DNA of 63,449 nt from positions 1 through 63,449 of the forward strand of contig NZ_JACHVA010000083.1 in NCBI RefSeq assembly GCF_014230055.1, read 5' to 3'. The position numbers and the translations under genes were made by a program. Of this stretch, positions 542-23,208 are shown one piece after another (positions within the stretch are counted from its first letter, which is position 1; each line of letters starts with the position of its first letter). This DNA is from Puniceicoccus vermicola. Lineage in GTDB: Bacteria > Verrucomicrobiota > Verrucomicrobiia > Opitutales > Puniceicoccaceae. The notes below the pieces were generated by a model. The model was given only the letters and a program-made list of their open reading frames with translations. It was not told the origin of the DNA and did not search any database.

Positions 542-842
<301 letters not shown>

Positions 843-9111: not shown

Positions 9112-10041
9112 CTACGCCCGCGGATGGGCTTGCCGGTAAACCTCCTGCAAACGGCCGATACTCGTATGGGTGTAGATCTGGGTCGTGGAAAGACTGGCAT
9201 GGCCCAGAAGCTCCTGGACACTGCGGATGTCGGCCCCGCCGTCGAGAAGGTGGGTCGCAAACGAGTGACGCAACTTGTGAGGAGACAAATCCTGCGGAAG
9301 CTCGGCGAGAGCGAGGTATTTTTTCATCCGGAGCTGCAGCCACCTCGTCGAAACGCCTTTGCCCGAGGCATGGATGACTACGGGCCCAGAGCGTGCTCCC
9401 TCACGATGGCTGAGGTGCAGGTGCTGTTTCACACAGTGAGAAGCGACTTTACCGATGGGGACAATTCGTTCCTTATTCCCCTTTCCCAAAACCCGAATTA
9501 ACCCGCGGCCCAGTTCCAGTTTACCAACATCGGCCCCCACGAGTTCACTGATACGCAGCCCCGCTCCGTAGAGAAGCTCCAGTGCAGCCCGATCCCGCCA
9601 GGCCTCGAAATCGGAAATCGACTCCTCCTTGAGCAAGCGCATCGGCCCCTCGAGAAAGAGCCGGATCTGGGTCTCGGTCAGGAATCGGGGCAAATTTTTC
9701 TCCAGCTTGGGGAGCGACAGTGAGGAAAACGGATTGCGGGGCACCGCCTGCCGCTCACGGTGATAGCGATAAAAGGCCCGAATTCCGGCCACCCGATTGT
9801 GCAACGTGCGACGCGAATAGGAGCGCTGTAGTTCAATCGCGTAGCTGCGGGCCGTCCGGGGTTCGACTTCACTCCAGGATTTCGACTCGCCCAACCATTC
9901 GAGATATCGCCCGACCGCCAGCCGATAATTGCGGATCGTCGCTGGCGACATCCGCCGCTCCCCAGCCAAATGAGACAGAAAGGACTCCAGTTCCGGGATC
10001 TTCTTTTCTGCCAGTTCTTCGCTCATGTTTTCGCTTATCAT
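9112..10041 (-). CDS. xerC: Site-specific tyrosine recombinase, XerC/XerD type
   Basis: This 309-residue tyrosine recombinase probably resolves chromosome dimers at a dif site together with a partner. It has an N-terminal SAM-like core-binding domain (about 14-105) and a C-terminal catalytic domain. All catalytic residues are present: R163 in GLRISEL, K187/K190 in GKGNKER, H255 and R258 in HKLRHSFATH, H281 in LLGHASLSTTQ and nucleophile Y290 in IYTH. Length and motif spacing fit chromosomal Xer proteins better than phage or integron integrases. An alternative ATG lies five codons downstream. It sits next to a large tandem-repeat array, which may be coincidental. Confidence 0.92.
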   Translation of the reverse strand: MISENMSEELAEKKIPELESFLSHLAGERRMSPATIRNYRLAVGRYLEWLGESKSWSEVEPRTARSYAIELQRSYSRRTLHNRVAGIRAFYRYHRERQAVPRNPFSSLSLPKLEKNLPRFLTETQIRLFLEGPMRLLKEESISDFEAWRDRAALELLYGAGLRISELVGADVGKLELGRGLIRVLGKGNKERIVPIGKVASHCVKQHLHLSHREGARSGPVVIHASGKGVSTRWLQLRMKKYLALAELPQDLSPHKLRHSFATHLLDGGADIRSVQELLGHASLSTTQIYTHTSIGRLQEVYRQAHPRA

Positions 10042-10080: not shown

Positions 10081-10920
10081 GGAAGAAACGGCTCTCGCCG
10101 TTCCTCTCCAATGTGAAGGAAACGCGGAACCGAAGGGCGATCGCCATTTCGAGTGTCCACTGTAGAACTCCTACTCCACCAACCAACGAGGAAGAAACGG
10201 CTCTCGCCGTTCCTCTACAATGCGAAAGAAAGGTGGAACGGAAGGGCGATCGCCATTTCGAGTGTCCGCTGCAGAACTCCTACCCCACCAACCAACGAGG
10301 AAGAAACGGCTCTCGCCGTTCCTCTCCAATGTGAAGGAAACGCGGAACCGAAGGGCGATCGCCATTTCGAGTGCTCACTGCAGAATTCCTGACCCGCCAG
10401 CCAACGATGAAGAAACGGCTCTCGCCGTTCCTCTACAATGTGAAGGAAACGCGGAACCGAAGGGCGATCGCCATTTCGAGTGTCCGCTGTAGAACTCCTG
10501 CGGCGCCAGCCAACGAGGAAGAAACGGCTCTCGCCGTTCCTCTCCAATGCGAAGGAAAGGTGGAGCGGAATGGCGATCGCCATTTCGAGTGCTCACTGCA
10601 GAACTCCTACCCCGCCAACCAACGAGGAAGAAACGGCTCTCGCCGTTCCTCTCCAATGCGAAGGGAAAGGTGAAGCGGAATGGCGATCGCCATTTCGAGT
10701 GCCCACTGTAGAACTCCTACCCCACCAACCAACGAGGAAGAAACGGCTCTCGCCGTTCCTCTCCAATGCGAAAGAAAGGTGGAGCGGAATGGCGATCGCC
10801 ATTTCGAGTGTCCACTGTAGAACTCCTACTCCACCAACCAACGAGGAAGAAACGGCTCTCGCCGTTCCTCTACAATGCGAAAGAAAGGTGGAACGGAAGG
10901 GCGATCGCCCTTTCGAGATG
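10081..10920. repeat. Eight-copy 109-bp tandem repeat array
   Basis: The marker GAAGAAACGGCTCTCGCCGTT recurs at about 10081, 10190, 10299, 10408, 10517, 10626, 10736 and 10845, giving seven steps of 109 or 110 bp. Each unit carries a hairpin AACGGC-TCTC-GCCGTT, a palindrome core GGCGATCGCC (perfect GGGCGATCGCCC in the last copy) and a CACTG(T/C)AGAACTCCT spacer. Copies differ by point changes but keep length. Because 109 is not a multiple of three, the same peptide recurs in changing frames on both strands, so the open frames here are repeat artefacts. It fills the whole gap between xerC and dapB, which point away from each other. Confidence 0.95.
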
Positions 10921-10982: not shown

Positions 10983-11723
10983 ATGCCTATTCTCCTCAAC
11001 GGCGCTCGTGGGCGCATGGGACAAGCGATTGCGGCGGTGGCCGAAGAAGAAGGTTGCCGCATCGTTGCCGAGTGCGACATCGGCTCCAACCCCGTCGAAC
11101 ATCTTCCCAATTGCGGCGTAGTGGTCGATTTCAGCTCGCATGAGAGCACTCCCGACCTGGCGGAAGAGTGCGCCGCGCAGGGCAAGCCTTTGGTCATCGG
11201 GACGACCGGACATACTCCGGAAGAGACGGAGCGGATCAAGGCCTGCGCCGAGAAGATTCCGATGGTCTGGGCCGGAAATTATTCGATTGGGGTGAATTTG
11301 CTCATCCATTTGACCCGTCAGGCAGCCAAGCTCCTCCCGGAGAGCTATCACCCGGAAATCGTCGAAATGCACCACCGCCACAAGAAGGACGCTCCCAGCG
11401 GAACGGCGGAAAACCTGCTGGAGGCCGTTCTCGAAGGACGCCAGTGGGAACCGGAAGCCGCCTTGCGCAGCCGCTCGGGCCTGACCGGAGAGCGCCCGGA
11501 CCAAGAGGTCGGCGTGCATGCTCTGCGCGGCGGCAGCGTCGTCGGCGAGCACACGGTGGTCTTCGCCGGCCCATCCGAGCGCATCGAGTTTTCCCACAGC
11601 GCCGGAGACCGTTCCATTTTTGCCCGGGGCGCCCTGACGGCCGCCAAATGGGTCGCTGGCAAGAAGCCCGGCATCTACCGCATGGGCGAAGTGCTCGGTC
11701 TGACCGACGGCACTGAAGACTGA
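10983..11723 (+). CDS. dapB: 4-hydroxy-tetrahydrodipicolinate reductase
   Basis: This 246-residue reductase makes tetrahydrodipicolinate in the diaminopimelate/lysine pathway using NAD(P)H. It has the nucleotide motif GARGRMGQ (7-14), GTTGHTPEE (73-81), catalytic His and Lys in HHRHKKDAPSGTA (H130, K135), and a C-terminal HSAGDRSIFARGAL. I chose ATG 10983 because AGAGG lies 7 bases upstream; an ATG at 10977 is also in frame but too close to that site. The upstream gap is entirely the 109-bp repeat array, so its promoter must lie in or just after the last repeat. It is the first gene of a long co-directional run to 18507. Confidence 0.95.
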   Translation: MPILLNGARGRMGQAIAAVAEEEGCRIVAECDIGSNPVEHLPNCGVVVDFSSHESTPDLAEECAAQGKPLVIGTTGHTPEETERIKACAEKIPMVWAGNYSIGVNLLIHLTRQAAKLLPESYHPEIVEMHHRHKKDAPSGTAENLLEAVLEGRQWEPEAALRSRSGLTGERPDQEVGVHALRGGSVVGEHTVVFAGPSERIEFSHSAGDRSIFARGALTAAKWVAGKKPGIYRMGEVLGLTDGTED

Positions 11724-22471: not shown

Positions 22472-23208
22472 GGTAGCGCGCCATGGCCCATGGCGCACCC
22501 CAGTGGGTATAAAGCAATCGACTCTGATCCCCATACATTCGCAGAATGCGGGTTGGGCCAACCCGCGCTACCTTTGGCGGCACGACGTTCGGCACACAGG
22601 CTGGAAGCCCCTTTTTCCAGACGACAACCAGTTCAATCGAGCGACCCTGAGATGGGGGCAGCTGAAGCTACTCCCCGTAGCCGCTCAGCTTTAGCTGCGC
22701 GGTCCTGCGGTTTCGGAAGGTCTTGCTCGGGTGCCGTTCGGAAAATACGCGATGGGGGCAGCTGAAGCTACTCCCCTACTTCCCGTAGCCGCTCAGCTTT
22801 AGCTGCGCGGTCCTGCGGTTTCGAGAGGTCTTGCTCAGGTGCCGTTCGGAAAATACGCGATGGGGCAGCTGAAGCTGCTCCCCTACTTCTCTGCCTATTT
22901 ACATCACCGCGATTCCGTCAATGGTCAGCTAGGTAACCCACAATGGCGCACCTCGGTGAGTATAAAGCGATCAACTCTGATCCTTCTTAAATTCGCAGAA
23001 TGCGGGTTGGGCCAACCCTCGCTACCTTTGGCGGCACGACATTCGGGACACAGGCTAGCAGCCTGTAGCACTTTTACTGATCGCATAAGCCGTTCGGTTT
23101 CCGTGCGAGTGCGGATCAGACTTAAAACCGCTCAGTCAGCTTAGTTTCAAAGTTGAGCGCTTGACAGACCGCGATCGAGAGAGCTGGAAGCTCTCACTAC
23201 TTTCGGTC
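22472..23208. repeat. Palindrome-rich repeat island A (left of the metal-efflux operon)
   Basis: No gene is evident; the region is assembled from repeat units. A first partial X unit is at 22472-22615. Y units begin with GATGGGGGCAGCTGAAGC: Y1 22651-22750, Y2 22751-22858 and a partial Y at 22859. A full X unit (about 22929-23208) ends in GAGAGCTGGAAGCTCTCACT. The stretch 22751-23208 aligns along its length with 29638-30083. Hairpins include GCGGGTTGG-G-CCAACCCGC, CAGGCT-AGC-AGCCTG and GAGAGCT-GGA-AGCTCTC. I see nothing recognisable in the following 23209-23441, which lies downstream of cusA. Confidence 0.85.

Follow-up and report, generated by a model that had tools for sequence, protein, structure and literature searches.

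Paired REP hairpins between xerC and dapB of Puniceicoccus vermicola: a probable BIME-like array with a linked RAYT gene

Results

The tandem array that separates a xerC-like gene from dapB in Puniceicoccus vermicola is very probably a BIME-like array of repetitive extragenic palindromic (REP) elements, with a linked RAYT gene and spread of the elements in pairs. We class the hairpins as a new REP family, of a kind already known, that forms BIME-like arrays and has a linked RAYT. The DNA analysed, here called the window, is a stretch of 63,449 nucleotides. The array lies at window positions 10081-10920; TRF delimited it at 10081-10917, with a period of 109 bp, 7.7 copies and 91% matches. Eight units start at 10081, 10190, 10299, 10408, 10517, 10626, 10736 and 10845. 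Six of them are 109 bp long, one is 110 bp and the last is 76 bp, which bears out the eight-copy 109-bp array described in the first-pass annotation. That annotation also had the array filling the entire intergenic space, but with dapB taken to begin at 10983, a chosen start, 39 bp next to xerC and 62 bp next to dapB are left over.

The neighbours are a xerC-like tyrosine recombinase gene (9112-10041, minus strand), which carries Pfam Phage_integrase and SAM-like domains and is not thought to act on the array, and dapB (10983-11723, plus strand), with DapB_N and DapB_C domains. The two genes are divergent, and the array between them is upstream of both. Neither a dapB promoter nor a terminator-like site was found in a sequence scan around the array, and the promoter scan gave one weak minus-strand match at 10064-10037.

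Each array unit joins two related imperfect hairpins, alpha and beta, as an inverted pair; both carry a tetranucleotide at their 5' side. The REP element is thus 26 nt long, consisting of the tag and an imperfect 22-nt hairpin with nine pairs and a 4-nt loop that starts with GA. Alpha is the minus-strand reading of the AACGGC-TCTC-GCCGTT hairpin and takes the form GGAG/GTAG-AGGAACGGC-GAGA-GCCGTTTCT. Beta is the plus-strand reading of the GCGATCGC palindrome, GGAG/GGAA-CGGAATGGC-GATC-GCCATTTCG, with variants. The outer pair is A-T in alpha and C-G in beta, and the two are forms of one element in opposite orientation. A unit reads as alpha REP (minus), tail-to-tail linker, beta REP (plus) and head-to-head linker. 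The tags lie inside, across 16-17 bp, and the hairpins face each other across 41 bp. The hairpin falls within the 20-50 nt of the short imperfect palindromes that define REPs, and a G-T pair near its base is constant, although the collecting motif itself fixed part of the stem.

All eight alpha elements, on the minus strand, matched the motif. They are the tag plus 22-nt hairpin of unit 1 at 10084-10109, the GTAG-tagged element of unit 2 at 10193-10218, and those of units 3 to 8 at 10302-10327, 10411-10436, 10520-10545, 10629-10654, 10739-10764 and 10848-10873. The beta elements, on the plus strand, matched in unit 2 (10235-10260), unit 5 (10562-10587), unit 6 (10672-10697), unit 7 (10781-10806) and unit 8 (10890-10915), where the AAGGGC/GCCCTT stem is paired. 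Those of unit 1 (10126-10151, missed by the regular expression), unit 3 (10344-10369) and unit 4 (10453-10478) have diverged stems and were placed from the unit alignment. Both AACGGCTCTCGCCGTT and GCGATCGC are present in 8/8 units.

The first-pass annotation held that changes between units tend to spare the palindromes, and on balance this is so, though the picture is mixed. Among the seven full units, the variable columns numbered 0/22 in the alpha hairpin, 2/22 in the beta hairpin and 20/66 in tags and linkers (Fisher p = 0.001 for 2/44 against 20/66). Units 1, 3 and 4 are the exception, with two unpaired positions in the beta stem. When four elements were folded as single-stranded DNA, all adopted the expected structure, with z scores of -5.1 for alpha and -1.2, -2.4 and -2.7 for beta. 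The beta elements of the window fold only moderately well as DNA, and alpha folds strongly. Sequences of the GCGANAGC type form unusually stable DNA mini-hairpins.

Other repeats were also seen in the window. A two-copy 108-bp tandem repeat at 22668-22889 contains GCTCAGCTTTAGCTGCGC hairpins (22683 and 22791); hairpins of this family flank the RAYT of locus L205. Single GAGAGCT-nn(n)-AGCTCTC hairpins at 23179, 30053, 31963 and 32200 belong to the family that accompanies the RAYTs of L156 and L158. A 113-bp direct repeat at 542-842 extends into the 3' end of tRNA-Ser (gga) (753-842, minus strand), about 20 bp of which is duplicated upstream by the repeat.

A scan of the genome for further units, proposed in the first-pass annotation, found the REP stem-loop core GGAANNGCGANNGCNNTTTC 231 times, and the reversed control gave 0 matches. 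Elsewhere in the order, the core was matched 1-3 times in 19 of 272 other genomes and not at all in the rest. BLAST with the array gave matches in one of 35 genomes, P. vermicola itself, and the idea of a REP family common to its relatives was rejected. The AACGGCNNNNGCCGTT pattern occurred at 59 sites in the genome and at 1-2 sites in 8/34 others. A text search of a limited collection of papers, with figures outside its reach, found no match to the exact hairpin strings and no work pairing 'Opitutales' with 'repetitive extragenic palindromic'.

A looser motif collected 198 elements, 54 of them distinct, in 39 clusters from 621,885 bases of the genome, a sample chosen around core matches and RAYT genes and not at random. 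In this sample, 20 tandem arrays had at least three elements, and their units differed. A tag was conserved, but its form varied among the 198 elements, with GGAG in 145, GTAG in 40 and other tetranucleotides in 13; GGAG is thus the majority form, where the usual REP tag is GTAG. By crude gene calling, which miscalled the array of the window as tandem when it is really divergent, 13 clusters were convergent, 18 tandem, 1 divergent, 4 inside short ORFs and 3 at stretch ends. Hence 32 of the 39 clusters were between called ORFs, in keeping with the many, mostly intergenic copies expected of REPs.

The elements followed a regular arrangement. Opposite-orientation neighbours were alpha/beta in 126/127 cases, and with the TRF arrays this matches the alternation of REP and inverted REP, joined by linkers and often in tandem, that characterises BIMEs. 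Same-orientation neighbours (n = 32) were alpha/alpha or beta/beta, partly because a diverged partner between them had been missed. Head-to-head gaps measured 39-44 bp in 50/60 cases and 78-82 bp in 8 of the other 10, and three listed linkers of the longer class enclose a REP that belongs to a different family, which also occurs next to the RAYTs at L156 and L158. Tail-to-tail gaps were 9-35 bp. Linkers differed mostly between clusters, with 18/105 pairs above the 99.5th percentile of shuffles, and given these alike pairs some arrays may share ancestry rather than have separate origins. In the 20 arrays, 18/40 edges fell within 5 bp of a REP end, against about 7.2 expected under a rough null (p = 8e-5).

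Covariance analysis of the hairpins, another suggestion of that annotation, showed that the stems covary genome-wide. Over the 54 distinct elements, 94.7% of stem cells were paired (83.3% in shuffles), 51 cells were changed on both sides of the stem (19.0 in shuffles) and the covariation score was 0.255 (0.082 in shuffles); 0/500 shuffles reached any of these values. Two of the five covariation measures stayed within the shuffle range, namely the number of stem pairs altered on both sides (4 against 3.3; 138/500) and the further pair types (9 against 7.4; 84/500). In slid controls, pairing dropped to 33-57%. The outer pair was C-G in 29/54 sequences and A-T in 23/54. Five of the nine pairs were invariant, partly since the motif had fixed them, and one stem pair was unpaired in 19/54 sequences, mostly as G-A. 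This covariation fits a hairpin in DNA or in RNA equally.

Known RAYT relatives are HuH-type enzymes that act on single-stranded DNA. PF01797 had 50 matches in the P. vermicola genome, the most among the 35 genomes searched. We inspected 54 RAYT-type loci, and one of them, C52:76339, had the array REP within 300 bp, on both sides. This gene (G000:C52:76339-76899) encodes 186 aa and is preceded by four elements and followed by at least two, one of them diverged, so that it is flanked by the same element as the array, as expected of a REP system. The protein matched NCBIfam REP_Tyr_transpos (NF047646) best, with E = 1.7e-12 and 47.4 bits, below the cut-off of 80; against Pfam Y1_Tnp (PF01797) it scored 13.8 bits, below the cut-off of 23. 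Five other RAYT-type proteins of the genome, with REP-like hairpins nearby or not, were also mostly below 80 bits. In the PDB it weakly matched E. coli TnpA_REP 4er8 (E = 0.0074; unrelated chains followed at E = 0.044), with an alignment over residues 30-154. By eye, the HxH motif (PDHAHF) and the tyrosine (HYIQENPV) are at the expected places.

Homologues of this protein were matched in 35/273 genomes of the order. Of 23 such homologues examined, 21 had at least 14 nt in common between their two flanks, compared with 7/552 mismatched flank pairs in the control; the other two, L256 and L259, had no shared flank hairpin. Close variants of the array hairpin flank several homologues, the nearest in form being GTAG-CGGACTGGCGAAGCCATTTCG in L246 and GTAG-CGGATCCGCGAAGCGGTTTCG in L248. 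Genome G186, with the nearest RAYT (55%) and three core matches, was rejected as proof of co-occurrence, because its RAYT is flanked by other hairpins. From the sequence around C52:76339 we infer that its RAYT acts on the array REP and may have amplified the elements.

REP-like hairpins were seen near ten of the 54 RAYT-type loci, all in the P. vermicola genome (L156, L158, L160, L174, L201-L205 and L114). Seven of these have hairpins on both sides by reading, with about nine hairpin sequences among the ten. Several REP/RAYT pairs coexist in this genome. A set of roughly three dozen RAYT-type proteins, about 316-331 aa in length, consists of close paralogues (...MSRTVNGEALFGDREREVLRKMIWQVAEFSGVRVVTYAVMKNHFH..., for example L159-L198), and no common tagged hairpin was seen by eye in their 250 bp flanks. 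At L174, the reading frame before the RAYT opens with PQAASLC..TGKLPVL repeats that resemble translated REP DNA, and the RAYT frame has one internal TGA.

Discussion

The anatomy described here matches that of published BIMEs and RAYTs, as far as the available parts of those papers describe it (PMC2817692, PMC8266576, PMC3116915). The E. coli BIME-2/REP arrays and their tnpA_REP (yafM) gene, as presented in excerpts of two of these papers, share the alternation of two REP subtypes, the tandem units with linkers, and a RAYT gene flanked by the same elements as its REP (PMC2817692, PMC8266576). The array differs from BIME-2 in hairpin sequence and in its majority tag, GGAG instead of GTAG, and the C52:76339 RAYT is distantly similar to 4er8. 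Binding of gyrase, IHF and Pol I is a feature of the E. coli BIMEs, whereas the array is known from its sequence only.

The GTAG-tagged families of Di Nocera and colleagues include GTAG-20 of Opitutus terrae (Verrucomicrobia), which gives the same phylum-level setting; in the available text they likewise have a tag with a 6-9 bp stem, form dimers and clusters, and in some cases have a degenerate tag (PMC3733652). The comparison of the array REP with GTAG-20 is by description. The tag variants named in that part of the paper are GYAG, GYRG, GTRG, GTMG and GTGG, and GGAG is not among them (PMC3733652). The REPINs of Pseudomonas fluorescens SBW25 are, in the sections of the source at hand, inverted REP pairs at preferred spacing and a suggested mobile unit, some in ordered tandem clusters and some close to RAYT genes (PMC3116915). 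In contrast to them, the array family is mostly clustered rather than in single pairs, and its pair is nearly always of two subtypes.

The unusual points of the family are the GGAG-majority tag, the strict alpha/beta pairing, the near-fixed 39-44 bp spacing and the position at a divergent promoter region. Most REPs described so far lie between genes that converge or point the same way, as stated in one survey (PMC3733652), and only one of the 39 clusters was called divergent; the site of the array is therefore unusual.

In known systems, TnpA_REP recognises a single-stranded REP by its tag and hairpin and cleaves at a neighbouring CT (PMC8266576). The GGAG tag retains the final two bases, AG, that the guide model uses, and recognition of tag and hairpin could be the same as for TnpA_REP. 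The C52:76339 RAYT would recognise the tagged hairpin in single-stranded DNA, and would cut and join paired elements, which would thereby have reached intergenic sites. At xerC/dapB, the pair would later have been multiplied on the spot, whether by the RAYT, by slippage or by recombination among units.

The genes xerC and dapB are also neighbours in G003, a genome of the same family, where about 120 bp separates them and there is no element match; in two genomes of the same genus, G001 and G002, the genes are not next to each other. An insertion of about 840 bp at xerC/dapB would fit the short gap of G003, without proof. This gap alone is the ground for an insertion, since the joined array flanks gave only weak local alignments with G003, G002 and G001 (scores 16, 23 and 21), in which no base-level empty site was found.

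Several other explanations deserve weighing. Replication slippage alone might have built and kept the array as a plain minisatellite, its hairpins merely aiding polymerase pausing. The units are indeed close copies, and unit types are shared within the array, as slippage or unequal recombination would give. We consider this unlikely because it does not account for the recurrence of these hairpins elsewhere in the genome between different linkers, for the alpha/beta rule, for the edges at REP ends or for a RAYT gene flanked by the same elements. The edge positions, measured against a rough null, lean towards array growth made by the RAYT rather than by slippage; slippage may still account for the last step, the multiplication of units. 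A structured RNA, or regulation at the RNA level, would require that the array be transcribed, with its hairpins controlling the xerC or dapB mRNA or acting as a small RNA. The hairpins are kept and covary, and many REPs have been argued to be transcribed in the available text of the survey (PMC3733652), yet Rfam matched nothing in the window besides a tRNA, and the array is upstream of both genes and not within a shared transcript. The same elements also occur in tandem, convergent and other gene settings, and in both orientations, among the 39 crudely called clusters, and an RNA role seems improbable to us. Any effect on the expression of xerC or dapB is taken to be a side effect.

A role in Xer recombination, with the array as the target of the neighbouring xerC product, had been raised in the first-pass annotation on adjacency. 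The best intergenic match to E. coli dif is 14/28, below the chance best of 17/28 elsewhere in the window; about 38 other clusters are in other gene settings, the xerC-dapB neighbourhood is not fixed, as G001 and G002 show, and G003 has the two genes together and no element. Such a target is very improbable. The same annotation read the GCGATCGC palindromes as HIP1-like octamers, as in cyanobacteria. The octamer is in every unit, but it arises only with a GATC loop, found in 14/198 elements, and the array holds 8/9 of its copies in the 63 kb window, leaving a single one outside, whereas HIP1 is an octamer abundant across a genome. On this window-scale count and the loop count we give this reading almost no credence. 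What stands of the earlier structural and protein-binding proposals is that the palindromes are kept and covary; the Xer and HIP1 parts fell away, and, since a RAYT gene is flanked by these hairpins too, we prefer a protein-binding or mobile-element reading.

Within the reading of the array as BIME-like, alpha and beta might move only as a pair, in a unit of about 92 bp (26 + 40 + 26) whose length a RAYT dimer measures. This is a tentative idea that we think doubtful. It is suggested by the head-to-head gap, which is near-fixed though the linkers of most clusters differ strongly; shared ancestry of linkers is a plain alternative for the constant length. If the idea holds, REP recognition here would follow a new mode, in which the RAYT is guided by GGAG and depends on two hairpins that differ from each other and stand a set distance apart.

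On the BIME-like reading, a puzzling array in a promoter region becomes part of a class of mobile elements, with a RAYT gene named for testing. It also means that an array between divergent genes need not regulate those genes. A genome of this order with several REP/RAYT pairs is a useful setting in which to study how each RAYT distinguishes its own hairpins from the others.
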